A stretch of DNA of 64,000 nt from Fibrobacteria bacterium (GTDB lineage Bacteria > Fibrobacterota > Fibrobacteria > UBA11236), in assembly GCA_017881725.1 (NCBI GenBank), contig JADGQO010000030.1, positions 1 to 64,000 on the forward strand, in the 5' to 3' direction. Shown in pieces: positions 12,841-64,000 of the stretch (positions are counted from its first letter, which is position 1; every line of letters starts with the position of its first letter). The notes under the pieces were generated by a model. That model saw only the letters and a program-made list of their open reading frames with translations, had not been told where the DNA came from and ran no database searches. The translations under genes were made by a program, and so were the position numbers.

Positions 12841-12903
12841 ATGGTATGGCTGGGGAATATATCTAAATTGCTGGGCTGTGAACCTGGTCGGAAAGGTCTA
12901 GTC

Positions 12904-14769
12904 ATGCGCCCGGAAGCGGATTCCCAGGGATCGAAATCGGCGGAGCCCGAATCGACTATACAAGTGACGACGCAATTCGTGCGCCTCGACCTACCGCCCG
13001 AAGGCTTCCGGCTCGTATCCGGAAAAACCCTGCCGCGCCTGGACGTGGCTTATGAAACCTACGGAACCCTGAACGCCGCGCGCGACAACGTCATCCTCAT
13101 TTGTTCCCCGCTGACCACGGACGCGCATGCCGCGGGCTATAACCCGGATTATGAGCGGCCCAAGGATCGCATCGGCTGGTGGGACGACATGATCGGCCCG
13201 GGCAAGGCCATGGATACAAATCGCTATTTCGTCGTGGCGTCCAACATGCTGGGTGGCTGCAAAGGCACCACGGGTCCGGCCTCCCTGAATCCGGAAACGG
13301 GCGAGCCATATGGGTCGGCCTTCCCGAAAATCACCGTCGAGGACATGGTGAACGTGCAAAGGCTTTTCCTGTTGCGCCTGGGCATTGACGTGGTGGAAGC
13401 GGTGATCGGCGGCAGCATGGGCGGCATGCAGGCCTTGCAGTGGAGCGTGGCCTATCCGGACAAGGTGAGAAAATGCATCGGCATCGCGACGGCCGCCTGC
13501 CTGTCGGCGCAGGCTTTAGGTTTCGAAATCATCGGCCGCAAGGTCATCGTCAACGATCCGAATTTTCACGGCGGGGATTTCTACCAGGATGGCGTGCTGC
13601 CGGATCGCGGCCTGGCTTATGCCCGCATGATCGGACACCTCACCTATTTGTCCGCCCTGTCCATGCACGAGAAATTCGGGCGTAATCGCAAGGAGAGTTG
13701 GGACGAAAGCCGTTTCGAGACGGGCTTCGAGGTGGAAAGCTATTTGGATCATCAGGGCGATCAATTCGTGCGGCGTTTCGACGCCAATTCTTATCTCCAT
13801 ATCACCTGGGCCATGGACCACTTTGATTTGCAGGCCCGCTACGGCTCCTTGGACGCTGCGTTCGAGAAGTCGCAGGCGGAATTCCTGCTGGTGGCTTTGT
13901 CTTCCGATTGGCACTTCTTTCCCGAGCAGATCCGCGAGTTGGGCCAGGTCCTGCTTAAAAAAAAGAAGGTCGTTTCCGTGGTCGAGCTGGAATCGCCGTA
14001 CGGCCACGATGCGTTTTTGTTGGAAGTCGCGAATCTTTCCCGGGTCATCCAGGGCTTTTTGGAAAAGCCGGCTTCCGGGCCGACGGAAGTGGATCCAACC
14101 GGGATAAGTCATCGGGCCCACGCGGTGAACGTTCAGCCACAGGCGGCGGGTTTTCGCGCTTCCCAGGATTTCGAGGTGTTGGCGGATTTGATCGAACCGG
14201 GCAGCCATATTCTCGACATCGGCTGCGGCGACGGCTCCTTGGTGGATGGCTTATGGCACAGCCAGGGCGTGACCGGAATCGGCATCGACATTGATTTGGA
14301 CAATGTCGTGAAGTGCCTACGGCGCAATGTGCCCGTGATCCAAAGCGACGCGGACAAGGGCTTGTCGCTGGTCGGGGGCGGCGCCTTCGATTATGCCGTA
14401 TTGAACCGGACCCTGCAAGAGGTGAAAAAGCCCCAATTGGTGCTCCGCGAAATGCTGCGCGTGGCGCGCAAAGGTATTGTTGCTTTCCCGAATTTCGCGT
14501 ATGCGGGAAACCGCCTGTCCCTCCTCGCCACGGGCATGATGCCCGTATCCGACGCGTTACCCTATAATTGGCACGATACTCCGAACATCCACCTGTTCAG
14601 CCTGGATGACTTCCGCGTTTTATGCGATCGGGAAGGCATAGTCATCGAAGAAATCAAATACCTGGGCGGCGCGTTGCTCGCGAAGGTTCTCTTGGCGTTG
14701 GGCCGGCCCAATCTGGGCGCGGAATTCGTGGTCGCGCGCCTGGCCCGGAGGCAGGACGCGGGAAAGTAG
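12904..14769 (+). CDS. metX-metW: Homoserine O-acetyltransferase fused to MetW
   Basis: A 621-residue two-domain protein. Residues ~20-380 are MetX, an alpha/beta-hydrolase that acetylates homoserine with acetyl-CoA in methionine synthesis: nucleophile Ser in GGSMGGM (~170), Asp in SSDWHFFP (~333) and His in YGHDAFL (~366). Residues ~405-615 are MetW, a methyltransferase-like domain with DIGCGDGSL (~438). In many proteobacteria metX and metW are adjacent genes needed together; here they are one chain. The start at 12904 is chosen because GGAAAGG lies upstream; the open frame continues back to 12841. Confidence 0.93.
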   Translation: MRPEADSQGSKSAEPESTIQVTTQFVRLDLPPEGFRLVSGKTLPRLDVAYETYGTLNAARDNVILICSPLTTDAHAAGYNPDYERPKDRIGWWDDMIGPGKAMDTNRYFVVASNMLGGCKGTTGPASLNPETGEPYGSAFPKITVEDMVNVQRLFLLRLGIDVVEAVIGGSMGGMQALQWSVAYPDKVRKCIGIATAACLSAQALGFEIIGRKVIVNDPNFHGGDFYQDGVLPDRGLAYARMIGHLTYLSALSMHEKFGRNRKESWDESRFETGFEVESYLDHQGDQFVRRFDANSYLHITWAMDHFDLQARYGSLDAAFEKSQAEFLLVALSSDWHFFPEQIRELGQVLLKKKKVVSVVELESPYGHDAFLLEVANLSRVIQGFLEKPASGPTEVDPTGISHRAHAVNVQPQAAGFRASQDFEVLADLIEPGSHILDIGCGDGSLVDGLWHSQGVTGIGIDIDLDNVVKCLRRNVPVIQSDADKGLSLVGGGAFDYAVLNRTLQEVKKPQLVLREMLRVARKGIVAFPNFAYAGNRLSLLATGMMPVSDALPYNWHDTPNIHLFSLDDFRVLCDREGIVIEEIKYLGGALLAKVLLALGRPNLGAEFVVARLARRQDAGK

Positions 14770-15999: not shown

Positions 16000-17592
16000 T
16001 CAAAAGCACGCCCAGCCCAGTTCGGCACCTGCCCTTAAGCCTCCCGAAAATTGGCTCCCAGAGGGCGTTCCGGAACTTCCTGAACCTGCGGTCGCGCTCC
16101 GGCCTCGCAACAATTGCACCCGAATGGGCAACGCCTGGGACAATTCCGTCCGCAACGTGACCGGTCCCCAACTGCGCGCCAGACGTAACTCCGGAGTTAC
16201 GATGTCCGCGGCCAATTCCGGAAAAGTCCGGTCGGATTCCTTTTCCTCATAGGCGATCAGAAAGGAAGTCGTCCTGCGGGTCAGGCGATACTCGGAACGT
16301 AAATCCAGGCGATGGTAGGCCAAGGCGATTTCCAAGCGCCAATTTTTTTGGAACCAGGCGGCCCAGGCTCCGGCGGACATGGATTGAACCTCCAGCATGC
16401 CGTCGAACAGCCAGGTCTCATCGTCGAAAAGCCCCAACAGGCTGCCCGCGTACGAATCGAGGACTCCGTTGCGATCCCAAAGATGTTTTCCATAGGCAAC
16501 GTCGGGACGATTGGCCCGCCACAGCGATTGCGCCGCGGCGAAATCGCCTCCGGCTTCCCACGCCTCGCGACCGGCCTGGGCGTCCAACCGGGCGGAATAG
16601 GCGGAATGGGTTCCGTCTTGATAGCTGAACAAATACAGGCCTTGAGGTTTTAAAGCGGTGCCGTGCAGGGCGTGATCGCCTTCCGAGGCGGATAAATCCA
16701 GGGTAACTTTACGGTTACCTGGGGCGCGTCCTCCAGAATACGTGACGCGCAATTCCTGCCGCCATGAGGAACCGCTGTCTCCCAGGGCGTATTCGGAACT
16801 TTGCAGGCGCGCGTAGTCCATTTTCCGGAGTTGTCCGGCCCACTCCGCGTCGATTCGCCCGCGTGAAAACCCCACCGCGAGGGATTGGGTGCGCGCGCGG
16901 GAAAGCATGGGCATGGACATTGCCTTATATTCCGTCAGTTGCAATTCGGCGGGAAAATCCGATCGGGACGTTTCCGTACTCCACATCCAGCGCAGCCCGC
17001 ATGGGAATGATCCGCGTAAACCCAGGTTGGCCGCGGAGTTTTCTCCGGTAACGGCGGTGCTACCCTGGACCACGCCGAAGGGGATCAGGTAGGGCGTCCA
17101 CACATAGGCGATGGACATGCGCCAGTCCCATTCCGACTTGTCTAAATCCAGAGACGCCGCGCTGTTGCCGATTTCCTCCTCAGTGCGGGATTTTATTACC
17201 TCGAACCGAAAATCGATGTTGGAGATAGGCGAAAGGCCGAATCGTAAGCCGCTTTGCGCCAAGTCCTGATCAAAATGGAATTCGCCTTGTTTATGGATTA
17301 AATCGTCACGCCCGGCGGAAACGACGGCGAAGCAGACGGGGAGGCCTGCGGGCTGGCCGGCGCTTCCGGAATCCCCGGAGGGGGAACCGGGAGAGGCCAT
17401 CGCCCCGGAGATGGCTTGCGGAGAAGTCAATGGAACAGGGGGGACCGGCAAGGTCGGGGACCAAATTTGTTCCCTGGGATTCCACCCAAACTCGGATTGG
17501 AAAATATCCGCCGACGGCGACGGTTGCGCGGCGATGAGGCCCGGCAAGCCCGCCAGGGTGGAAAGGGCAGAGGCCAACCACCTAAGGCTCAT
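16000..17592 (-). CDS. Predicted secreted outer-membrane protein of unknown function
   Basis: A 530-residue protein with a signal peptide (MSLRWLASALSTLAGLPGLIAAQ), a Pro/Ser/Gly-rich segment to about residue 85, then long alternating amphipathic strands ending in ELGWACF, a terminal aromatic as in beta-barrels. GAGGAG precedes the ATG. I recognise no family; a helix-hairpin-helix or sugar-binding function is not indicated. It carries two perfect GTAAC-N6-GTTAC dyads (16185, 16703) and a one-mismatch copy (17048). It is likely co-transcribed with nothing, since a terminator lies just upstream of its start. Confidence 0.6.
   Translation of the reverse strand: MSLRWLASALSTLAGLPGLIAAQPSPSADIFQSEFGWNPREQIWSPTLPVPPVPLTSPQAISGAMASPGSPSGDSGSAGQPAGLPVCFAVVSAGRDDLIHKQGEFHFDQDLAQSGLRFGLSPISNIDFRFEVIKSRTEEEIGNSAASLDLDKSEWDWRMSIAYVWTPYLIPFGVVQGSTAVTGENSAANLGLRGSFPCGLRWMWSTETSRSDFPAELQLTEYKAMSMPMLSRARTQSLAVGFSRGRIDAEWAGQLRKMDYARLQSSEYALGDSGSSWRQELRVTYSGGRAPGNRKVTLDLSASEGDHALHGTALKPQGLYLFSYQDGTHSAYSARLDAQAGREAWEAGGDFAAAQSLWRANRPDVAYGKHLWDRNGVLDSYAGSLLGLFDDETWLFDGMLEVQSMSAGAWAAWFQKNWRLEIALAYHRLDLRSEYRLTRRTTSFLIAYEEKESDRTFPELAADIVTPELRLARSWGPVTLRTELSQALPIRVQLLRGRSATAGSGSSGTPSGSQFSGGLRAGAELGWACF
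16185..16200. repeat. GTAAC-N6-GTTAC dyad (gene at 16000-17592)
   Basis: GTAAC-TCCGGA-GTTAC; the spacer is itself palindromic and the flanks extend the symmetry to CGTAAC/GTTACG. Confidence 0.9.
16703..16718. repeat. GTAAC-N6-GTTAC dyad (gene at 16000-17592)
   Basis: GTAAC-TTTACG-GTTAC, flanked by CCAGG and CCTGG so that the arms reach about nine bases. Confidence 0.9.
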
Positions 17593-17684: not shown

Positions 17685-19229
17685 TCAGCGCCGGCCCAAC
17701 AGCGTCAATGCGAAGTGCGGGGACATTACGGACATTACGGATACTACGGACGTTCCGGAGCTTGCGGCCCGCTTGACCAACGGACCAGTTTCGGTCGATG
17801 ACCCCGAATCCATCCCCATTACCCGTTTGGCGGCGGTGGGTTTTTTTTCCATCGATTTTTGCAGCAAGCTCCACACGGCGTCTTCCGTGGCCCCGGGCAG
17901 GAAGCCTTGGAAGGTCGGATCCTGGAGGTGCAAAATGGAGCGGATCTCCGTGATGACTTCTGCAGGGGGAAGTCCCAGGGAGTCTGCGCGTTTGCCGATA
18001 TCGATCAAGTCCTTGATGTTCCCGGTAACCTTGCCGTTACGGTCGGTGAAATACAGGACCGGCTTGGCGTCGCTCCAATCGTTCGCGTTGTAGAATCCGT
18101 AGTACGGGAGCATTTTCTTGTAGTCCTGGACGCGGAAATAGGCAGAAAAGTCGATGCTTACCGTGGTATCCAGGCCGGGCACGGCCAATTGATAGGGGTG
18201 GTTCATGTATTTAATGCCGCTATCGATGACGGTGATGGCTTGGTCCAGTTCGGCGGACTCGATGCATTGGGTCATTTCCCTCGGCGCGCACAAGTGAAGA
18301 AGTTCGGCCGGATTGGATCGGACTTTCAGCGAGCCTACGGATTCCTTAAGGATTCCCAAGGCGGAATTAATCTCATCGTCCACGCCGGCCAGTTTTGTCT
18401 GCCAAGCGGGTTTCACGGCCAGGAACGGCGAACCGGGACCCAATAAGGTGGTCAATTGGTTGAAGGCCGCGCGTTGATCCGCCGTCAGCTGGGAAAAATC
18501 GTGGATGGTTCCGACGTCCTGCAGGGATTGCAAATAGTCGTAAGATCCGTTGGCGTCGAGGTCGTAATCATAGGCCAGCCAGAGGGTGAGCAATCCATGG
18601 ATCGCGTGCACGCCGGCGAGGAGAACGCCCGCTTCCGCGTGATCCAATTCCCGCGGCTTATCCTCGATGGTGAGGGTCATGGAAAACGCGGGGTCGTTAT
18701 AGGCTACTTGCAAATGGGTGATGGCATCCTCCAAAGCGGGGAGCAAGGTGTCGGCGATGGCGTCCTGGATGGCATGGAATTCCGGGAACTGCGCGGCGGC
18801 GGCGACTTTTTGGAGTACGGCCAGTCGCATGGCGGGAGCCGTATTGGTGACGCGCGTATCGAAAGGCGATTTGGCGTCCAGGGATTGGTTGATGACCGAG
18901 CTCAAGCGGTTGCTTTGCGCGGCCAGCATGACGCCGGTCAAGGCCATACCCAATTGGGCTTTTCCGTTGCCGGGATTCACCCGGACGGTGGCGGCGAATT
19001 CCTCACGGGAATTCCGCAGTTGGGTTAAATCTTCTTTTCCGTACTGATATTGGCTCAAGTTGCTCATTCGCGCCACGGCGCCGTTCAGATCGGACGCGGC
19101 CAGGGCTGCGGTGGAGTCGGAAGTTTTCTTTTCCTGCGTGGAAGGCCCCTCGTTGGACGTGTTGCACGCAGAGAGACAGGCCAATATGGCGGTCAATCCG
19201 GAGAATAGTTTCAGGGAATTCATGCGCAT
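17685..19229 (-). CDS. Lipoprotein of unknown function
   Basis: A 514-residue product whose signal peptide ends in LSAC, a lipobox, so it should be lipidated and anchored in the envelope. AGGAG with five-base spacing supports the ATG at 19229. The body is helical and rich in Leu, Asp and Ala, with no recognisable domain; the run SYDYLQSLQDVGTIHDFSQLTADQRAAF is typical of its texture. It is followed by a terminator and has a perfect GTAAC-N6-GTTAC dyad at 18025. It sits divergent to putA. Fibrobacterota-type surface lipoprotein is possible but unproven. Confidence 0.65.
   Translation of the reverse strand: MRMNSLKLFSGLTAILACLSACNTSNEGPSTQEKKTSDSTAALAASDLNGAVARMSNLSQYQYGKEDLTQLRNSREEFAATVRVNPGNGKAQLGMALTGVMLAAQSNRLSSVINQSLDAKSPFDTRVTNTAPAMRLAVLQKVAAAAQFPEFHAIQDAIADTLLPALEDAITHLQVAYNDPAFSMTLTIEDKPRELDHAEAGVLLAGVHAIHGLLTLWLAYDYDLDANGSYDYLQSLQDVGTIHDFSQLTADQRAAFNQLTTLLGPGSPFLAVKPAWQTKLAGVDDEINSALGILKESVGSLKVRSNPAELLHLCAPREMTQCIESAELDQAITVIDSGIKYMNHPYQLAVPGLDTTVSIDFSAYFRVQDYKKMLPYYGFYNANDWSDAKPVLYFTDRNGKVTGNIKDLIDIGKRADSLGLPPAEVITEIRSILHLQDPTFQGFLPGATEDAVWSLLQKSMEKKPTAAKRVMGMDSGSSTETGPLVKRAASSGTSVVSVMSVMSPHFALTLLGRR
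18025..18040. repeat. GTAAC-N6-GTTAC dyad (lipoprotein gene)
   Basis: GTAAC-CTTGCC-GTTAC. Confidence 0.9.
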
Positions 19230-49643: not shown

Positions 49644-50888
49644 ATGAGCGCGCAGTCCCGCATCGGCCTGGTCGGGCCGGATTATACCCAACCTTGCGGC
49701 ATCGCCGACTATACCGGCCGGTTGGCGTCGGCGCTGCGGCCACGGTGCGATTTAGTCTTCACGCCGTTCCGCGAAGCGATGGGCGGCCGCCTGGATGGGT
49801 GCCAAGCAATCCTGGTCCAATATGAACGCAGCCTCGTGCCGCATCGGAACTTCCTGGAACGGATTTCCGCCCGGTATCCGGAAAAGGTCTTCGTGGCCCC
49901 GCACGAGGTGTACGCGGAAGATCCCTTCGCCTTTCCTTACGCGTCGCTGCGTTCGGCCTTCCCTCCGCTCTTGTGGGGGAAACGTCTGCGTTACCGTTGG
50001 GCCCATCGCGGGTACGCGCGCGAACAAGCCTTGCAAAAACAGGGATATCATGCTTTCCGCGTGATCCCACTTTCCGGCCCGAACGAGCAATTGCTTCGGA
50101 ACGTTTGCGGCGACCGCGTGTTGCCCGTAGTGCCTCTCGCGTATTTCACACCGCCGACCTCATCCGTCTCCGGACCGTCCCGTTCCGAACTTTTCCCAAA
50201 GGGCTGCCGGACCGTATTTGGAATCTTCGGGTTTGTGAATCCGGCCCAGGATTACGGCCTGGCGCTGGAGATGATCGCCCGCATGCGCGGGGAGGCCGGG
50301 CTGCTCGTACTGGGCGGTGAACGCAATATCCGCTCTGTCCGCCGGGACGCGCGCGAGCCAAGGGTCGCGTCGGATTCCGGCCGGGAGGTGGCGCGGCTTG
50401 AGGCCCAGGCCCGGGCTTTGGGGATCCAACGTAGCGTACGTGTTACAGGGTATGTGGCCGAGCCGGAGTTGTCCCATTATTTCAAAGTCTGCGACGCCTT
50501 TTTGGCGCCCATGCGGTTCAAGAGCAACAGCAGCTCGCTGGTGAATCTCCTGCACGCGGGCAAACCGATCCTGGCCACCGATCTTCCCTTGACTCGCTGG
50601 TTGCGCGATCAGGGATGCCCGTTGCGCCTATTCGCTGACGCAAAGTCCTTGGAAATCCTCGCCCGTGGGGTTTCCGATCGAACCTTGCCGGATGGGGAAT
50701 GCCGTTATTCTTGGACCTTCTCAGCCGTGGCGGATGCCTACCTGGCATCGATGGCCTCCGCGACCTCCGCGCCCGCCCCCGCAGCCTCTGCGACCGCAGC
50801 CTCTGCGACCGAACCTCTCGCCGGATCTTCCCGCCCAGAGCCCCTCTGGCCAGACCCCCTGGCCAGGCCTCTGAAAATCAATAGTTGA
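49644..50888 (+). CDS. Glycosyltransferase (GT-B fold, group 1-like)
   Basis: A 414-residue protein whose N-terminus reads IGLVGPDYTQPCGIADYTGRLASAL, the typical start of GT-B transferases, and whose C-terminal domain has YVAEPELSHYFKVCDAFLAPMRFKSNSSSLVNLLHAGKPILATDLP, like the donor-binding part. It probably adds a sugar to LPS or another envelope glycan; donor unknown. The ATG at 49644 is only seven bases after a TATAAT, so the start or promoter may be different. The last 45 residues are Ala/Ser/Pro-rich with a 15-base tandem duplication (50781-50810). Confidence 0.75.
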   Translation: MSAQSRIGLVGPDYTQPCGIADYTGRLASALRPRCDLVFTPFREAMGGRLDGCQAILVQYERSLVPHRNFLERISARYPEKVFVAPHEVYAEDPFAFPYASLRSAFPPLLWGKRLRYRWAHRGYAREQALQKQGYHAFRVIPLSGPNEQLLRNVCGDRVLPVVPLAYFTPPTSSVSGPSRSELFPKGCRTVFGIFGFVNPAQDYGLALEMIARMRGEAGLLVLGGERNIRSVRRDAREPRVASDSGREVARLEAQARALGIQRSVRVTGYVAEPELSHYFKVCDAFLAPMRFKSNSSSLVNLLHAGKPILATDLPLTRWLRDQGCPLRLFADAKSLEILARGVSDRTLPDGECRYSWTFSAVADAYLASMASATSAPAPAASATAASATEPLAGSSRPEPLWPDPLARPLKINS

Positions 50889-52539
50889 ACGAAAGCCGCA
50901 AGGAAATGTTGTGCGTGGATGGAAACCGGTTTTTAGTCTGGACCTTGGTTTCCTGTACCTGATAGATGTAACCGATTTCCAGGTTGCGGCTTAGGAAGAA
51001 CCGAAAGTCCGCAGTGAGATCGTCCAAACGGATGCGGCTGGGATTGGCGTTGGGGGCGAATATTTCCGTGCGTAGATCCAAGGTCATTTGGCTGCCGAGG
51101 CGGAACGTCGCGTTCAAGGTGTTTTCAATTCCGATTTCATAACTGGACTGCACCGGGACGTAGAGCGCGAGGGAGTCGTTGCTCCTGACATAGCTGTGAT
51201 TGGCCAAGGTTTGACGGCCGGCTAAACCGACTTGGGTCGAGGCCTCCAGATAATACCGCGACAGGAATTCCACGTTAACGCCCGCGCCTTCACCGAGATT
51301 CAGCGGGTCCAGGACGGGACCCACCTCGAAGCTGTTACTGCCCGTATGTTTCACGGTGTCCAGGCCGCCACCGGACAATTCATGAAGCGCGTAAATCGTA
51401 TCCTGGCTGGCGAAGCTCGGGAAAATATGCGAATCCAGGGTGCCGCGCACGTAGGGTCCTAGCCAAGCGTTCAAGCGGCGGACCCAGTTGGTGCGGAACT
51501 GGGCGATATCCGAGGTGACCGAAAACGGTTTGCCGCGTTCCTTGCCGAAATTGTCCTGGAGGAAGATCTCGCTCGATCCCAGATATTGGGCATTGTCGAA
51601 CAGCAGTCGCAGGCGCACGTCGCTGTTGACCTGCATGGCCTCGTGGCGGACGCCGTCATCCTTGGTTTCGCGCGTCAGGTTGACATTGCCGCCGATGCGC
51701 GCGCCGAAGCTCCAATTGCTGCCGACCTTCACGCGCGCGTTCAAGGTCTTGATTCCGCCGGCCACTACGTCGCCGGCCACGACCTTGTCGAAAATCAGCT
51801 CTACCGGAGTCAGTTCGCCCGCGTTGATTTGTACGGTGATGTAATTGCGCAGCGATGTAAAACCCTCGCCCGGCTTGCTGATGCGGTACAGTCCGGGCGG
51901 CAAAACCCACATCTTGATGTCTTGCAGCCGCTCCTCATTCAGGCCGTGACCCTTGCCGTAATTGATCCACCGTTCCATGCGGATCACTTCGTATTGGCCT
52001 TCGAAATATTTTCCGTCCGGCGTCAACGTCTCTACCAAAAGCCCGCCCCAATCGACGGGAACCACGGTCGTGTGGCCTTCCTCGATGCTGATTTCGTAAG
52101 GCATGCGCTGGCCCGATGTGCCCGATCCCAAACGCACCGAGTAAGCGCCGGAGTCCAATAAAATCCGTTCGCCGGTTTGTCCGGTCCTGACTTCCCTGCC
52201 CCGCCTGTCGAAAACGGTGACTTCGGGTTCCCGGCGCGGCTCGGTGAAGGTCGGTACGAAAACCGCGCCCTTGCCCAAGGGAATCAAGGTGCGTTCGCGC
52301 GTCAATTGTTCATCGACGGCCGGTGAAAGCCAGCTCGTGGGCTTCGCCTTGGCGGGCTCGGATGCTTTTGTTGGAGCGGGCGCGAGAGGTTCCGCCAAAC
52401 CGGAAACATCCTCGCCGGGCAATTCCCCGATTTGCACGCCTAGGGCAGGTAAACCGGCACCCAGCACGATGAGCAGCGTGGCCGCGGCCCTCCATCGGAG
52501 CACGTGATCCGGACGAATAAATCGGCGCGCCGTTGCCAT
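50878..52539 (-). CDS. Predicted outer-membrane barrel protein in the MCE operon
   Basis: A 553-residue product with an N-terminal hydrophobic segment (ATLLIVLGAGLPALG), a beta-rich, PEGA-like region (about 100-250: VTVFDRRGREVRTGQTG and later NYITVQINAGELTPVEL), and then a long run of amphipathic strands ending in ISLRLSFNY with a terminal aromatic. It overlaps the lipoprotein gene upstream by one base (TAATG), so it is coupled to the MCE/ABC genes. I do not recognise a family. As an outer-membrane partner of the MCE system it would be a candidate lipid conduit. Its C-terminus overlaps the tail of the plus-strand glycosyltransferase. Confidence 0.65.
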   Translation of the reverse strand: MATARRFIRPDHVLRWRAAATLLIVLGAGLPALGVQIGELPGEDVSGLAEPLAPAPTKASEPAKAKPTSWLSPAVDEQLTRERTLIPLGKGAVFVPTFTEPRREPEVTVFDRRGREVRTGQTGERILLDSGAYSVRLGSGTSGQRMPYEISIEEGHTTVVPVDWGGLLVETLTPDGKYFEGQYEVIRMERWINYGKGHGLNEERLQDIKMWVLPPGLYRISKPGEGFTSLRNYITVQINAGELTPVELIFDKVVAGDVVAGGIKTLNARVKVGSNWSFGARIGGNVNLTRETKDDGVRHEAMQVNSDVRLRLLFDNAQYLGSSEIFLQDNFGKERGKPFSVTSDIAQFRTNWVRRLNAWLGPYVRGTLDSHIFPSFASQDTIYALHELSGGGLDTVKHTGSNSFEVGPVLDPLNLGEGAGVNVEFLSRYYLEASTQVGLAGRQTLANHSYVRSNDSLALYVPVQSSYEIGIENTLNATFRLGSQMTLDLRTEIFAPNANPSRIRLDDLTADFRFFLSRNLEIGYIYQVQETKVQTKNRFPSTHNISLRLSFNY

Positions 52540-53252
52540 TAGGGTTTGACCTTGTGGCTGTTGGCGTCAGTCAACGCGGTATCCTTGCTCGTGCCGGCTT
52601 TGTCCTTGGCTTCGTCGAGGACCACCTCCAATTCTTTCGTCATCCGATCATTCATGGTCTCGAGAAGAAAAGACAATTCGCGGACCACGTAGACCGGTTC
52701 CTGCTGGGCCACGGTTTTGCGCAGGTCGAACATTTTTTTCCACACGATTTGGTTCGATTTCGCGTCTTCCAATTGGTATTCGATGGCCAAATGGGCGTAC
52801 CACGAATCCTTGTTGTCATACTCCTCGATGGCTTGGATGTCGGCGCCGAGGTAAAAATCCGGGATATAACTTTCCACCGTGCGCGTCACGTTTTCGAAGA
52901 GCCTGGCGGCCTTCAAATGCTTCACGGCCAAATCGCCGATCATGCGATCCGGGTCCACGGCCCAAAGATGGTAACCATAGAACTCCATCTGGTTCGCTGA
53001 CTGGCGGTACACGATTTGGGACCGTCGATATGCTTCGGCGATGTTGCAATCGCGCACCCGCAGCGTAAACGGGTAGGGCCCCTTTTCCAGCCGTTCCTTG
53101 GTCGGTGTGGGAACATAGTCGAGGACGTAATATTTGGATTCGGTCGGCTTTCCGAAAAAACAGGCGTTCAATCCCAGGCAGGCCAGGCAGGCCATGAAGG
53201 CCGCCCCGGCCACGGCCGCCCCGGCCGCGGTGACGGCGCGCGATGTTTTCAT
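52539..53252 (-). CDS. PqiC-like ABC-transport auxiliary lipoprotein
   Basis: A 237-residue lipoprotein. The signal peptide ends LGLNAC (lipobox), and the body has KYYVLDYVP near the N-terminus, then RRSQIVYRQSANQMEFYGYHLWAVDPDRMIGDLAVKHLKAARLFENV, the ABC_trans_aux (DUF330) pattern of PqiC. In E. coli PqiC is the outer-membrane partner of the PqiAB MCE system. It overlaps the MCE gene by four bases, so it belongs to this transport operon. Confidence 0.85.
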   Translation of the reverse strand: MKTSRAVTAAGAAVAGAAFMACLACLGLNACFFGKPTESKYYVLDYVPTPTKERLEKGPYPFTLRVRDCNIAEAYRRSQIVYRQSANQMEFYGYHLWAVDPDRMIGDLAVKHLKAARLFENVTRTVESYIPDFYLGADIQAIEEYDNKDSWYAHLAIEYQLEDAKSNQIVWKKMFDLRKTVAQQEPVYVVRELSFLLETMNDRMTKELEVVLDEAKDKAGTSKDTALTDANSHKVKP

Positions 53253-54133
53253 TTCCGACGCTCCTGCTTATCCTCGCCGCGCAACAGCACGGAGGGGTTC
53301 TCCTTCACTTGGCGGCTGAACGTGTTCATGTTTTTCATGGTTTCCTTCAGGTTGCTCATGGATTGCGCCAAATCTTCCTGGATGCGCGAAACGGTCAGGT
53401 CCACCTTTTGCGCCACACCGCTTATGCCTTCCGCGGCTTTCCGGTATTCATGCACGGTCTGATCGATTTCAGCGTCGTGAACCTTGGTTTTCAAATCCTT
53501 CGCGGCCCCTTCCAGTTGGGTGAGGATCCCGTCCATGCGCTGGCCCGGCCGCACGCGCCCGATGTCCTTCGCAAGGGAGTCCAACGCCACGCTCAAATCG
53601 GCTGAACTTTTGATCAACCGATCGATTTGCGCCCGGTTCTCAGTTTCCGTGATCGCGACGACGTTTCCCAACAACCGATCCACTTTTCCGGCAATGGAAT
53701 CCGCCCGCATCCCGACCTTCCCCCACAAGGATAATTCCGAGCGAACCTCGCCGCCGCGCGGTACGTTGGGCGAAGAGTAGCTTCCGCCGGTGATTTCCAG
53801 GTACTTCAATCCGGTGATGCCGTAGGTTCCCATGCTGGCCACCATATCGGTTTTCATGGCCGTGCCTTCGAGAACTTCAAAGTGGACGATGGATTTGGTG
53901 ATGTCCGTGGAATCGGTGGAGATGGTAGTGATGTTGCCGATTTCAACGCCGTTCTCCTTGACCGGTGTACCCGGTTCCAACCCGCTGACCGTTTCGGAAA
54001 GCCTTGTGAAATAAGGCGATTTATGCACCAGGAGCCGTTTTCCGACCAAAGCGAAAACCACGGCGACCAAAATCCCGGCCGCCATGAGAAGGAATGCGCC
54101 CAACCGGGCTTTTTCGGCTTTATTCACGTCCAT
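53249..54133 (-). CDS. mlaD: MCE-domain periplasmic lipid-transport protein (MlaD-like)
   Basis: A 294-residue protein anchored by an N-terminal helix (LGAFLLMAAGILVAVVFALV). The MCE domain follows (about 40-120: FTRLSETVSGLEPGTPVKENGVEIGNI), then a long helix-rich C-terminal part with coiled-coil character (about 150-280). MCE proteins form hexameric rings that carry lipid between inner-membrane ABC transporter and outer membrane. The longer open frame upstream overlaps mlaF and is not used; the ATG at 54133 (MDVNKAEKARLG) is. The helical C-terminus suggests a needle or extended form rather than the short MlaD. Confidence 0.88.
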   Translation of the reverse strand: MDVNKAEKARLGAFLLMAAGILVAVVFALVGKRLLVHKSPYFTRLSETVSGLEPGTPVKENGVEIGNITTISTDSTDITKSIVHFEVLEGTAMKTDMVASMGTYGITGLKYLEITGGSYSSPNVPRGGEVRSELSLWGKVGMRADSIAGKVDRLLGNVVAITETENRAQIDRLIKSSADLSVALDSLAKDIGRVRPGQRMDGILTQLEGAAKDLKTKVHDAEIDQTVHEYRKAAEGISGVAQKVDLTVSRIQEDLAQSMSNLKETMKNMNTFSRQVKENPSVLLRGEDKQERRK

Positions 54134-54152
54134 GGGCAATCCAGACTTCGCA

Positions 54153-54947
54153 TCATATTTCCTCCAAATGGAACGGCACGGGATCACCGGATAGGTCGGC
54201 CGTTCCGGATTTCCGAGCCAAGAAAGCTTTGACCTCTTCGGGCCCGGATTTTTGGGCCTCGTCCCAAGTCCCATCGTACAATACCTTGCCTTGGGACAGG
54301 AACGTCAATCGATCCGCGATGGCGCGGATGGAGTCCAATTCGTGGGTTACCACCACCATGGTGATGCCCAAGGAATCACGTAGTCCCAACAGCAAATCGT
54401 CCAACTCCCTCGATGTCACCGGATCCAATCCAGCCGATGGCTCATCACAGAACAACAGTTCCGGATCGGTCACGATGGCCCGGGCCAAGCCCGCCCGCTT
54501 GCGCATGCCTCCCGACAATTCATTGGGCAGCTTGTCGTACGATCCATCCAATTTCACCTGCGTCAATTTCATGCGCACCAACGCTTCCACCACGTCGGCC
54601 GGCAAGCCCGGCTGATGCAATCGCAACGGCAAGGCCACGTTTTCCCCCACGGTCAAGGCCGACAGCAGCGCGCCTCCCTGGAACAGCACGCCCATCCGCT
54701 GGAGCAACGCCAAGGGCGGATTCCCCGCCGACCAATCCACTTCGGTGTCCAGCATGGAAATACTTCCAGCCAACGGCCGCTCCAAACCGATGATGTTTTT
54801 CAACAAGGTGGATTTGCCGCACCCCGAAGCGCCCAAGACCACGCGGATCTCGCCGGCGGCCACGCTCAGGTTCACGTCCTCCAGCACCACGCGCCCGCCG
54901 TAGCCCGCGCGCAGTCCCGTCACGCGCAACTTGGTATCGTCGCTCAA
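54153..54947 (-). CDS. mlaF: Mla-type ABC transporter ATP-binding protein
   Basis: Powers lipid transport with the MlaE permease. About 264 residues, with Walker A GASGCGKSTLLKNIIG, Q-loop FQGGALLSALTV, signature LSGGMRKRAGLARAI, Walker B LLFCDEPSAGLDPV and H-loop VTHE. The FQGGALLSALTVGENVALPL and SGGMRKRAGLARAI blocks are specific to the MlaF/Ttg2A type. The TTG at 54947 is a tentative start; no ATG fits the family N-terminus. It sits between the permease and MCE genes. Confidence 0.9.
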   Translation of the reverse strand: MSDDTKLRVTGLRAGYGGRVVLEDVNLSVAAGEIRVVLGASGCGKSTLLKNIIGLERPLAGSISMLDTEVDWSAGNPPLALLQRMGVLFQGGALLSALTVGENVALPLRLHQPGLPADVVEALVRMKLTQVKLDGSYDKLPNELSGGMRKRAGLARAIVTDPELLFCDEPSAGLDPVTSRELDDLLLGLRDSLGITMVVVTHELDSIRAIADRLTFLSQGKVLYDGTWDEAQKSGPEEVKAFLARKSGTADLSGDPVPFHLEEI

Positions 54948-58029: not shown

Positions 58030-58821
58030 ATGACTCATTCTGGAATGCGTAGGTTTTTAACGGGCACGGCTTTCATGTTTTTGGCTGCGGCGGGATATGC
58101 ACTGGCGGCGGGGCCTGGTGACCCCGTTACCGTGATCAAAAAGAAAGACGCGGAATTGCAGAAGCTTCTGCATGAAAAGAATCCTTCCGGCCAGCCCGAC
58201 GCCAAGAAGACCGAGAAAATCAAGGTGCTGATCAACGGCATCTTCGATTTCGAGGAACTGGGCAAGCGTGCCTTGGGCCCCGACACTTGGAAGGCGACGC
58301 CTCCGGATCAGCAAACACGGTTCGTCAAGGCCTTCAAGGGCATGGTGGAAGCGGCTTCGGTGAAGAAATTGGAAGCGTACGAATCTGATTCATCGTTGTA
58401 CGATCCTCCGGAAGCCTCCGAGGAAAAGGCCAGCGTCACCACGCATATGTGGAACAAGGGCCAGGAATCCATCGTAACCTACAAGTTACTGGTTAAGGAC
58501 GGGTCCTGGAAGGCGTGGGATTTGATCATCGATGATTTGAGCACGGCCCATAATTACGGCGAACAGTTCCATAAAATCCTCCAGACTTCGGACATGAATG
58601 CCTTGATCGCCAAGCTGGAAAAGAAAGGCGGCGAGGTTTCCGATTCCAAGTCGGCCGGTGCAGCCAAAGGGAAATCGGATAAGAGTGCATCCGGTAGCAA
58701 ATCCACCGATTCCAAAAAAACCTCAGCCAAAGCTGCGGGCAAGCCGGCCAAGGCCGCCGTCGCGGCGCCCGGAGCAGCGTCCGCTGCGGCTCCCGCTGCG
58801 GTCCCTGCCGCCAACCCTTAA
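58030..58821 (+). CDS. mlaC: MlaC-like periplasmic lipid-binding protein
   Basis: A 263-residue protein with a signal peptide ending ALAAG, the MlaC/Ttg2D domain (about 30-200: KVLINGIFDFEELGKRALGPDTW, QQTRFVKAFKGMVEAAS, WKAWDLIIDDLSTAHNY), and a C-terminal low-complexity tail rich in Lys, Ser and Ala (about 204-263). MlaC shuttles phospholipid between MlaD and the outer membrane. It is not in the mlaEFD operon but in the divergent one with the TolC-like gene. A GTAAC-N6-GTTAC dyad is at 58474. Confidence 0.88.
   Translation: MTHSGMRRFLTGTAFMFLAAAGYALAAGPGDPVTVIKKKDAELQKLLHEKNPSGQPDAKKTEKIKVLINGIFDFEELGKRALGPDTWKATPPDQQTRFVKAFKGMVEAASVKKLEAYESDSSLYDPPEASEEKASVTTHMWNKGQESIVTYKLLVKDGSWKAWDLIIDDLSTAHNYGEQFHKILQTSDMNALIAKLEKKGGEVSDSKSAGAAKGKSDKSASGSKSTDSKKTSAKAAGKPAKAAVAAPGAASAAAPAAVPAANP
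58474..58489. repeat. GTAAC-N6-GTTAC dyad (mlaC)
   Basis: GTAAC-CTACAA-GTTAC. Confidence 0.9.
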
Positions 58822-60277: not shown

Positions 60278-60724
60278 TCATTCCCCTGAAGTAACGTGAA
60301 TGTTACGTAGGTTCCCTTCGCCGACGCGGATGGTCACGCGGTAGCCAATTGCCATCCCTGCCGGCAGGCGATCCGGCCATTCCACCAGGCAAATTGCGGA
60401 TCCGTCGAAATAATGATCCAACCCGATTTCCTCCCAATCGACCGGGTGGCCGCGTTCGGCGGCGGTGGAATCCAACCGGTACAAATCCATGTGATAAACC
60501 ATGACGGGTCCGGGATATTCATGGATGATGGCGTAAGTGGGAGAATGCACGGGACCGGCGCACCCCAAACCTTCCACGATGCCGCGGCATAAGGCCGTCT
60601 TGCCCGCCCCGAGCGGGCCATTCAAGGCAACGATGTCGCCCGGCCGCAACCGGGACGCGAAAGTCCGCGCCCAGGCTACGGTCTCGGCCTCGGAGCGCGA
60701 GACGAATTCCTCGCTGGAATCCAC
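60278..60724 (-). CDS. tsaE: tRNA threonylcarbamoyladenosine biosynthesis ATPase
   Basis: A 148-residue P-loop ATPase that drives the TsaBD complex making t6A37 in tRNA. It has Walker A GPLGAGKTAL, HSPTYAIIHEYPG, YHMDLYRL and ICLVEWPDRLP, all typical. It ends with a GTAAC-N6-GTTAC dyad (60291). It follows the PorX-like gene with only four bases between; a porX-tsaE pairing is something I recall from Bacteroidota. Confidence 0.95.
   Translation of the reverse strand: MDSSEEFVSRSEAETVAWARTFASRLRPGDIVALNGPLGAGKTALCRGIVEGLGCAGPVHSPTYAIIHEYPGPVMVYHMDLYRLDSTAAERGHPVDWEEIGLDHYFDGSAICLVEWPDRLPAGMAIGYRVTIRVGEGNLRNIHVTSGE
60291..60306. repeat. GTAAC-N6-GTTAC dyad (tsaE 3' end)
   Basis: GTAAC-GTGAAT-GTTAC. 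Confidence 0.9.
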
Positions 60725-60728
60725 GGGG

Positions 60729-62285
60729 CTATTTCGGCGTCAGGGTCACCAGGGGAACCAGGAGTTCTTCGATGGACAGGCCCCCGCCCACCATCTGGCC
60801 CTTGAACTGGGTCACGAAATACTGGAACTTGTTGGGGTAGACGAAATAATACTTGTCCTTCGCGATGGCATAGGCGATTTCGCCCACCTCGCCCGGCAGG
60901 CCGTACTGCACCGGCGTCTCGACAAACAAAGCATGGCGTTCATCACAAGAAATATTCTGCCCGATTTTGACGCGCGGGTTGGGGGTTTTTTCCTCCTGGC
61001 AAAAGACTTCGGCGGGCGAGTCGACCAGCACGGTTCCATGATCGCTGGTCAGGATGACGGTGCGCTTCCGCTCTGCGAAACTTTTCAGGATTTCGAAGAG
61101 TTTCGAAGACTTGAACCAAGTCTTGGCCAACTCCCGGAAGCCTTTTTCGTCTGGCACGATTTCGCGCAAAAGCGAGCTTTCCCGGCGCAGTAAATTCAGA
61201 ATGTCGAAAAACTCCACCACGATGGTGACCAGGCTTTCCGAATCGTAGCGATCCAAATCCTCGGCCAGTTTCAAGCTGTCTTCCGGTTGCCGCAAATGGA
61301 CGATGGCGGGCTCTTCCAAATCGATGCCGTTGATGCGCAGGTTATGCTTCAGGAGTTCGCGCTCATACGGAGCCTTGTCCTCCTCGTCCTGCATTTTTTT
61401 CCAGAGCTGCGGCTGCTTGAGGCTCACTTCGCGCGGGCTTTGGCCGGAGAATAATCCCACCCGGCAATTGGTTTTTTCGCTGGGCAACAAGGCCCAGGAA
61501 ATCGCATTTTCGACCTTGAAGACCGTTTCCAACAAGGGTTGCAAAGCCAGCCATTGGTCAACGCGGAAGCCGGCCATGACCAACAAACAAGCCTTCTCGC
61601 CGCGTTTCAAGACGGGAATCACCTTGCGCTTCAGCGCCTGGGTGCAAAGATTGGCGTTGCCGCCTTTCTTGCCGAACCAGGACACGTAGTTCTCCTCCAC
61701 GTAGGTGATGAACTTGCGCGTGACTTCCTTTTTCTGGCCCAAGTGGGTCTCTTCCAGGCCTTGATCGGAAATGGCGGCCAGGTCGTTGTCCCATTTGCAT
61801 AATTGGAAATAAATCTTCTCCCATTTGGTCGGGAGCAAGTTTGTCATCAGGCTGCTTTTGTTTTCCGACAGTTCGCGCACGTAGGCCGACGTAACATGGT
61901 TGTTACGGATGGCGCGCGAGTGCAGGATGCTTTTGCACACGGAAAGAATCTGCGAAGGGTTCACGGGCTTGATCAAATAGCCGTTGATGTTGCGCCCCAG
62001 GGCCGCTTCCATCAGACGCTCTTCCTCGCTCTTGGTCACCATCACCACGGGAATGTTGGCGTCGTACTCCTTGATTTCCTCCAAGGTGGACAAGCCGTCC
62101 TTGCCGGCCATCTGCTCGTCCAAAAGCACCAGGTCATAGTCTTTGCTCTTGACCATCGCCACGGCGTCGTCGCCGTTGGTGGCTTTTTCCACCTCGTAGC
62201 CATGGGCTTCCATGAACATGATATGGGAGCGGAGAAACTCGATTTCATCGTCGACCCAAAGGAGCCTTTTGCCGTTACTCGTCAT
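60729..62285 (-). CDS. porX: PorX-like response regulator with PglZ domain
   Basis: A 518-residue protein: receiver domain (1-120) with phospho-acceptor Asp56 in VLLDEQM, then GRNINGYLIKPVNPSQIL, which is diagnostic of PorX, a helical linker, and an AlkP-fold PglZ domain with SDHG (414-417), RVKIGQNI and YFVYPNKFQYFVTQFKGQMVGGGLSIEELLVPL. In Bacteroidota PorX controls type IX secretion. Catalytic residues as I recall them are altered: VMAGFR (236-241) where an Asp is usual, and LPSEKTNCR (267-275) in place of PTATQYAR. It overlaps the kinase gene (ATGA). A dyad lies at 61891. Confidence 0.9.
   Translation of the reverse strand: MTSNGKRLLWVDDEIEFLRSHIMFMEAHGYEVEKATNGDDAVAMVKSKDYDLVLLDEQMAGKDGLSTLEEIKEYDANIPVVMVTKSEEERLMEAALGRNINGYLIKPVNPSQILSVCKSILHSRAIRNNHVTSAYVRELSENKSSLMTNLLPTKWEKIYFQLCKWDNDLAAISDQGLEETHLGQKKEVTRKFITYVEENYVSWFGKKGGNANLCTQALKRKVIPVLKRGEKACLLVMAGFRVDQWLALQPLLETVFKVENAISWALLPSEKTNCRVGLFSGQSPREVSLKQPQLWKKMQDEEDKAPYERELLKHNLRINGIDLEEPAIVHLRQPEDSLKLAEDLDRYDSESLVTIVVEFFDILNLLRRESSLLREIVPDEKGFRELAKTWFKSSKLFEILKSFAERKRTVILTSDHGTVLVDSPAEVFCQEEKTPNPRVKIGQNISCDERHALFVETPVQYGLPGEVGEIAYAIAKDKYYFVYPNKFQYFVTQFKGQMVGGGLSIEELLVPLVTLTPK
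61891..61906. repeat. GTAAC-N6-GTTAC dyad (PorX-like)
   Basis: GTAAC-ATGGTT-GTTAC, in the region linking the receiver domain to the PglZ part. Confidence 0.9.
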
Positions 62286-63613
62286 GTTTTTTTCCTGGTA
62301 TTCCTCTCCGGAGCCAAAGGCAGCATAATTTCGAACTGGGTGCCCACGTCACGCTGGCTTTTTTCAACATAGATTTTTCCGCTGTGGTATTCATTAACAA
62401 TCCGGCGGCAAAGCGAAAGTCCCAGTCCCCATCCCCGTTTTTTGGTGGTGAAACCGGGATTGAAAATATGCTTGATGTGTTCGCGTGGAATGCCCTTGCC
62501 GTTATCGGCGATGGAAATGTGCACGGAATCCTCTTCGTGCACGAAGCGCGTGGAAATCCGGATGAACCCCGCGTCCACCTCGATGGAATCCACGGCGTTG
62601 CGGATCAGGTTTTCGATCACCCAGCCCATCAATTCCCGGTTGATCCAGATTTCCGGCAAATCCTCCAAATGCAGGATGATTTCGATTTTCTTTCCCAGAT
62701 GCGGCAGACGCGACTGGAAATAATGCGCGGTGAATTCGATGATTTCGTTGAGGTTTTGCTTCTTCAGCTCCGGGATCGATCCGATTTGCGAAAACCGGGT
62801 CGCCACGCGGTTGAGCCGGGAAATATCGCCTTCCATCTCGCCCAATAAACGCAGGTTCTTTTCCGAATCCGGAAGGCTTTCCAATTTCATGCGCAGGAAA
62901 TCGATCCAACCCAACAGCGAGGAAATCGGCGTCCCCAATTGATGCGCCGTTTCCTTGGCGAGACCTACCCACAACAGGCTTTGTTCATTGGATCGGATGA
63001 TTTGGAATCCGAAATAACCCATGAAGCAGAACAGGAAAATGATGAACAGTTCCACGATGGGCATCCAGGCCAGGATATGCACCAGCGGAAACTCGCCGTA
63101 ATGCAGGAAGCCGAAAGTATGGCCTTCCGCTTCCAGCTCCAAGGCCTGGTTTTTTTTATCCATCTCCTTCACTTGCCGAAGCAGAAACTCCTGTTCCGTC
63201 TTGGCCAGGAAGGTGAAGGGCACTTGCTGGATCAACCCTTTTCCCTTGCTCCAGAAACGGTAGCTGATATTGTTCCAGTTGATGGGCACGTTCTGGTTGT
63301 CCGTGATGATCATGGGCACCTGGGACTTGCGCACGATCTCGTTGAAAATCACGTTGATTTCCTCGCGGTTCAATTGCTCCGCGATGGCGACGGCGTATAG
63401 GCGCGCTTCCTTGTCGTTGATTTCCAAGGCTTGGGAACGCAGACTGCTGATGAACACCTGGTTGAGGATGGTGAAGCAGGCCAACAAGGCCAAGGCGCTG
63501 GTGAACAGGATGTATTTGATGTTCGCCAACGAGAGCGAAGTCAGCCAACTGCGCAGCTTGCGCATGGGAGGCAACTGGAAGACTCGGGTGGGGAAGGAGC
63601 GATCGGAAGGCAT
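62282..63613 (-). CDS. porY: PorY-like sensor histidine kinase
   Basis: A 443-residue kinase with a first transmembrane helix (YILFTSALALLACFTILNQVF), a periplasmic sensor region (about 70-180), a second helix (VELFIIFLFCFMGYFGFQII), then an H-box KETAHQLGTPISSLLGW, N-box ENLIRNAVDSIE, G boxes ADNGKGIP and KRGWGLGLSL. The ETAHQLGTPISSL H-box is of the PorY type. It overlaps the PorX-like gene and is probably its partner. ATG 63613 is chosen; a TTG at 63634 is the longest. Confidence 0.88.
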   Translation of the reverse strand: MPSDRSFPTRVFQLPPMRKLRSWLTSLSLANIKYILFTSALALLACFTILNQVFISSLRSQALEINDKEARLYAVAIAEQLNREEINVIFNEIVRKSQVPMIITDNQNVPINWNNISYRFWSKGKGLIQQVPFTFLAKTEQEFLLRQVKEMDKKNQALELEAEGHTFGFLHYGEFPLVHILAWMPIVELFIIFLFCFMGYFGFQIIRSNEQSLLWVGLAKETAHQLGTPISSLLGWIDFLRMKLESLPDSEKNLRLLGEMEGDISRLNRVATRFSQIGSIPELKKQNLNEIIEFTAHYFQSRLPHLGKKIEIILHLEDLPEIWINRELMGWVIENLIRNAVDSIEVDAGFIRISTRFVHEEDSVHISIADNGKGIPREHIKHIFNPGFTTKKRGWGLGLSLCRRIVNEYHSGKIYVEKSQRDVGTQFEIMLPLAPERNTRKKT

Positions 63614-63625
63614 GGGACTAACCGG

Positions 63626-63740
63626 AAAATTCAAAGGGAAGAAGTAAAAGGTAAAAAGTCAAAATTGAAGATCTCCCTGGATGGGTTGTCGACCGCGGCA
63701 ACTTTTAACTTTTAGCCATTAGCCATTAGCTTCTTAATTC
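63626..63740. repeat. AT-rich heptad intergenic element, copy 3
   Basis: AAAATTCAAAG at 63626-63636 within a purine-rich stretch (63625-63670), a GC-rich centre (63676-63698), then a pyrimidine-rich side with a TTAGCCA repeated in tandem (63713-63726). Same design as copies at 29042 and 30486. Lies between the PorY-like kinase gene and serS. Confidence 0.55.
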
Positions 63741-64000
63741 TCACTTCTTCTTTGCTTTGATTTCAGTCAATCCGCCCATGTATGGACGCAGCACTTCCGG
63801 AATGCGTAAGCCGCCGTCCGCGGTCTGATGCGTTTCCAAAAGCGCGACCAACACGCGCGGCGTGGCCAATCCCGATCCGTTCAAGGTATGCAAGTACTGG
63901 GTCTTGCCGTCCAACTTGGTGCGGATATTCGCGCGGCGGGCCTGGAAGTCCTCGAAGTTGGAAACCGAGCTCACTTCCAACCATCGTTCTTCAGCCGGCG
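63741..64000 (-). CDS. serS: Seryl-tRNA synthetase, C-terminal end only (cut by window edge)
   Basis: The last 86 residues of SerS. Reading in from the right edge gives [58 protein letters not shown] and ends [15 protein letters not shown], matching the motif 3 region and C-terminus of class II SerS. The start lies outside the window. It precedes the PorY-like gene on the same strand with about 127 bases between. Confidence 0.97.

Follow-up and report, generated by a model that had tools for sequence, protein, structure and literature searches.

The window analysed here, a stretch of 64,000 nucleotides from a Fibrobacterota MAG, carries on its minus strand four genes which, in the order of transcription, are: the 3' end of serS (63741-63998), assigned by TIGR00414 and synteny, a gene that runs past the window and is the upstream member of a conserved order; a PorY-like membrane sensor histidine kinase (62282-63634) of 450 amino acids from a TTG start, or 443 from an inner ATG at 63613; porX (60729-62285), whose product of 518 amino acids combines a receiver, a three-helix bundle and a PglZ/alkaline-phosphatase-like domain with a degenerate active site, as judged by NF052313, Foldseek and a table of the ligands; and tsaE (60278-60724), with a GTG start and 105 bits to TIGR00150 (cut-off 60.1), located 3' of porX in most relatives. 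Exactly four bases are shared by the kinase gene and porX, as an earlier sequence-only reading of this DNA had claimed, and a gap of four bases separates the porX stop from the GTG of tsaE.

The regulator was identified as PorX by the NCBIfam equivalog NF052313 (502.7 bits, cut-off 300), and its best PDB matches, by sequence and by fold, were the PorX crystals of Flavobacterium johnsoniae and Porphyromonas gingivalis. Its AlphaFold2 model (mean pLDDT 90.8, confident almost throughout) has the predicted fold of receiver, three-helix bundle and PglZ domain, and the top Foldseek matches (7pvk, 7pv7, 8tef, 8p6f; TM 0.74-0.82) extend over the full length. The domain order, the full-length fold and the receiver residues are shared with these two PorX proteins (PDB 8ted, 8p6f, 7pv7, 7pvk), at 32-34% identity in structural alignment. 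The residues of a phosphorylatable receiver, recognised in full by the earlier reading, are all present in the sequence: D12, D13, D56, T84, Y103 and K106. The BREX PglZ protein, reported to be an active metal-dependent nuclease (PMC12205998), has the same alkaline-phosphatase-like domain (Foldseek match 9zn5; BREX_PglZ_3 at 69 bits, below the cut-off of 250), but is a defence protein without a receiver domain of the PorX kind.

The active site of F. johnsoniae PorX (PorX_Fj) binds two zinc ions through D237, the nucleophile T271, D360, H364, D414, H415 and H499 (PMC10951265, PMC11320123). Alignment to the F. johnsoniae and P. gingivalis proteins, ungapped through each motif and numbered as in PorX_Fj, gave AKDLDHG in the window PorX against DTDHDHH at these seven zinc/catalytic positions, so that the two-zinc site is incomplete. 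Four residues are replaced: zinc ligand D237 by A238 (61572..61574), the nucleophile and ligand T271 by K271 (61473..61475), zinc ligand H364 by L365 (61191..61193) and zinc ligand H499 by G500 (60786..60788; QHGG became VGGG). Three are kept: D361, equivalent to D360 (61203..61205), and D415-H416, equivalent to D414 and H415 (61038..61043), all six of these stretches being codons on the minus strand. With the sites numbered as in PMC11320123, one of three ligands is therefore left at Zn1 (D360/H364/H499) and two of four at Zn2 (D237/T271/D414/H415). The sequence-only reading had correctly noticed the absence of the Asp in VMAGFR and of the catalytic Thr in LPSEKTNCR, where the alignment places A and K, and the intact SDHG; it had missed H364 and H499, making two changes out of four, and was mistaken in describing the C-terminal blocks as intact. 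Metal ligands at shifted positions were rejected, since the motifs align without gaps and no substitute residues were seen. Nor are the changes an assembly or sequencing error, because five other genomes of the same genus agree, with A, K, D, (Q/N), D, H and G at the seven positions. A second, intact PorX was likewise rejected, a single full-length match being found in the genome. In PorX_Fj, T271V alone or D360A/H364A abolishes phosphodiesterase activity (PMC11320123), and the loss of the phosphodiesterase site suspected from the sequence is upheld by the four replacements. By descent and architecture the window protein is a PorX, but its sequence does not predict an active phosphodiesterase; D361, D415 and H416 remain, so that it might still bind some metal.

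The loss is not confined to the lineage of the window, as had been proposed, and extends through the phylum. Outside Fibrobacterota, every one of the 78 PorX proteins sampled keeps all seven residues; 35 of these come from Bacteroidota and the others from groups that include Ignavibacteriota, Poribacteria, Calditrichota, Cloacimonadota, Zixiibacteriota and Latescibacterota. Inside the phylum only four of 47 keep them (G031, G032, G036, G037), the other 43 being degenerate; 48 Fibrobacterota genomes had a PorX match, 47 of which yield a full-length or nearly full-length protein. The outside proteins were fetched by peptide patterns beyond the active site and ranked by their similarity to the PorX of the window, a procedure that is not expected to enrich for intact sites. 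The replacements of the nucleophile vary by clade (K, S, A, P, D, R and others). When the ligand columns were left out of the tree, the intact forms, of families f9 and f11, fell inside Fibrobacterota, and the best tree needs four losses if a lost site cannot be regained. A single loss is disfavoured by this tree, by two unlike residue patterns (D237 kept and D414/H415 lost in f8/f10/f12; D237 lost and D414/H415 mostly kept in f1 and f7) and by family f11, which holds both the intact genus g36 and the degenerate genus g37; the AU test does not formally reject it (p 0.066).

The kinase matches HATPase_c and, weakly, HisKA in Pfam, and its H, N, G1 and G2 motifs are intact (AKETAHQLGTP, NLIRNAVDSI, DNGKGI, GWGLGL). 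A profile of the adjacent kinases found one full-length orthologue per genome in all eight PorX genomes searched outside the phylum (Bacteroidota, Chloroherpetonaceae, Rhodothermales, Calditrichia), with E-values of 1e-90 to 1e-134 and matches extending through the sensor region; the second kinase, where listed, fell more than 200 bits behind and matched in its C-terminal half only. The window kinase is taken as the PorY orthologue, PorY being identified by the uniqueness of the full-length match and not by a named record, and this orthology, with NF052313, sustains the reading of the two genes as a PorX/PorY pair. The window porX adjoins its kinase gene, unlike that of F. johnsoniae and P. 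gingivalis, located at a separate locus, and unlike Bacteroidota in general: the kinase was beside porX in none of those eight outside genomes and in none of the 32 Bacteroidota loci whose upstream sequence was long enough, which agrees with the usual separation that the sequence-only reading gave for Bacteroidota and with the distance between porX and porY in P. gingivalis (PMC10951265, PMC11320123). The order serS-kinase-porX-tsaE is, however, common to most Fibrobacterota, two Zixiibacteriota and an Ignavibacterium, and the shorter kinase-porX arrangement is found in Latescibacterota, Poribacteria and a Gemmatimonadota, so the pairing is not a novelty of this lineage. In these five other phyla (Zixiibacteriota, Latescibacterota, Poribacteria, Gemmatimonadota, Ignavibacterium) the PorX beside the kinase has all seven residues, so the adjacency may be ancestral; the suggestion that it bears on the loss of activity was rejected on the same ground.

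In the PglZ half, columns at least 97% conserved outside Fibrobacterota were compared across the 43 degenerate proteins: retention is 0.35 for the ligand columns and 0.73 for the remainder, and random sets of seven columns are kept as poorly with a permutation p of 0.007; the receiver columns are kept at 0.92. N276, N305, K329 and N357 are also nearly all lost in degenerate PorX. In the PorX_Fj cleft a sulfate is held by K329, N357 and R275 (PMC11320123); of the phosphate-cleft residues of the crystallised proteins most are replaced in the window PorX, R275 being retained. The scaffold residues stay: P268, G281, R383, G416, R437, P463, G500, E506 and P510. Within the genus of the window, dN/dS is 0.00-0.07 for the receiver and 0.04-0.11 for the PglZ half. 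PorX of this genus looks like a maintained pseudoenzyme, because most of the cleft is gone, scaffold and receiver persist, and dN/dS does not exceed about 0.1 in either the receiver or the PglZ half.

We consider it highly probable, from these sequence comparisons, that the locus encodes a true PorY-PorX two-component system and that its response regulator has been maintained as a pseudoenzyme. PorY would phosphorylate the intact PorX receiver; the PglZ half, without the nucleophile and three other ligands, would hold no two catalytic zinc ions and cleave no phosphodiester. Since this half would no longer be catalytic, the output would have to pass through a phosphorylation-driven conformational change or dimerisation and through protein contacts, and the regulated process is probably the expression of T9SS genes or secretion. 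Loss of the Zn1 site need not be neutral, to go by P. gingivalis, in which the catalytic mutant T272V secretes about half as much as the wild type and the double mutant of the Zn1 site 13-20% (PMC11320123).

Among the T9SS markers that the sequence-only reading proposed to search for, SprA/Sov and PorV are present in the window genome, together with 49 hits for the type A sorting domain, and its PorX thus occurs together with a T9SS. A working pseudoenzyme relay that regulates a process other than type IX secretion in Fibrobacterota is nonetheless conceivable, although we hold it to be rather doubtful. PorX contacts the motor protein GldL through its phosphorylated receiver (PMC10951265), the GldL/GldM motor being the PorX contact in F. 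johnsoniae, and the GldL and GldM models found no Fibrobacterota above their cut-offs (0/27 and 0/21 respectively) and were positive in three of three Bacteroidota controls; the known motor contact of PorX is therefore either lacking in Fibrobacterota or has diverged beyond the reach of the model. SprA moreover persists without PorX: SprA/Sov is present in 162 of 168 Fibrobacterota genomes, PorX in 48. Against a target outside type IX secretion stand the SprA, PorV and type A sorting domains of the window genome itself, and the other non-Bacteroidota PorX genomes tested, in which GldL/GldM were equally unrecognised although SprA is present. Whether the Fibrobacterota PorX, as a pseudoenzyme without either zinc site, relays PorY signals to type IX secretion purely by phosphorylation-driven contacts, the phosphodiesterase being dispensable in nature, we judge to be an even question.

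A PglZ half with changed chemistry, using another metal or a new nucleophile (e.g. Lys271 or the neighbouring Thr) and acting as an enzyme on another substrate, appears unlikely. It would accord with the retention of D361, D415 and H416, with the fact that all six sequences of the genus carry K271 and the neighbouring Thr (this Thr stands in a column where PorX mostly carries Q or P) and with the purifying selection on the PglZ domain; but the replacements of the nucleophile differ between clades, there is no new shared catalytic set, and K329, N357, N305 and N276 went as well. The least probable explanation, that PorX is simply decaying without function, would fit its absence from 120 of the 168 genomes of the phylum and the relaxed receivers of genera g2, g21, g19 and g24, but conflicts with the genus of the window, whose six genomes all have an uninterrupted reading frame, a full set of receiver residues, an intact kinase and low dN/dS in each domain.

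The probable pseudoenzyme of the window genus belongs to a phylum in which the module has been eroded to different degrees. No PorY lies beside porX in genera g2, g21, g19, g24 and g28, and a search of nine of these genomes found no full-length PorY at another locus. The median conservation of the receiver is 0.86 without an adjacent kinase and 1.00 with it, and in g2 the second acidic receiver residue is P, T or G. Receiver decay tends to go with PorY loss, but with only three to four independent events, nearly all pointing the same way, the association stays at the level of a suggestion and does not reach significance on the tree (sign test p 0.25). PorX is missing from all of families f3 and f4, and a search for PorY in five PorX-less genomes (G102, G145, G041, G166, G167) gave no full-length match. 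The erosion may have been stepwise: the catalytic site would have gone first, then, in some lineages, the kinase with a relaxation of the receiver, and then the whole porX-porY module, the SprA/Sov translocon staying.

In f3, f4 (probably Fibrobacteraceae) and f13/f14 SprA is found without PorX, which departs from the published view of PorX as a companion of every T9SS. Within genus g18, one genome (G003, locus L144) has serS-kinase-porX-tsaE, and in another (G002, locus L191) the serS and tsaE frames abut, the kinase and porX being cleanly absent.

The role of the phosphodiesterase activity of PorX in the T9SS is unsettled, and the Fibrobacterota constitute a natural experiment on it: the question is directly testable, since the phylum has dropped the catalytic site while keeping the rest under strong selection, as in the window genus, and has elsewhere lost PorX but kept SprA. 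No earlier report of a PorX pseudoenzyme in Fibrobacterota was found in the searchable literature, which consisted of papers outside subscription journals.

Other genes of the window include an open frame on the plus strand (12841-14769) in which MetX (residues 52-411) is followed by MetW (442-608), i.e. a MetX-MetW fusion; three long open frames of 514-553 amino acids (16000-17592, 17685-19229 and 50878-52539, minus strand), for which Pfam and NCBIfam gave no match at the thresholds applied; and genes for a MlaD-like protein and an ABC-auxiliary lipoprotein (52539-54274, minus strand) with a separate MlaC-like gene (58030-58821, plus strand), apparently parts of a lipid transport system.
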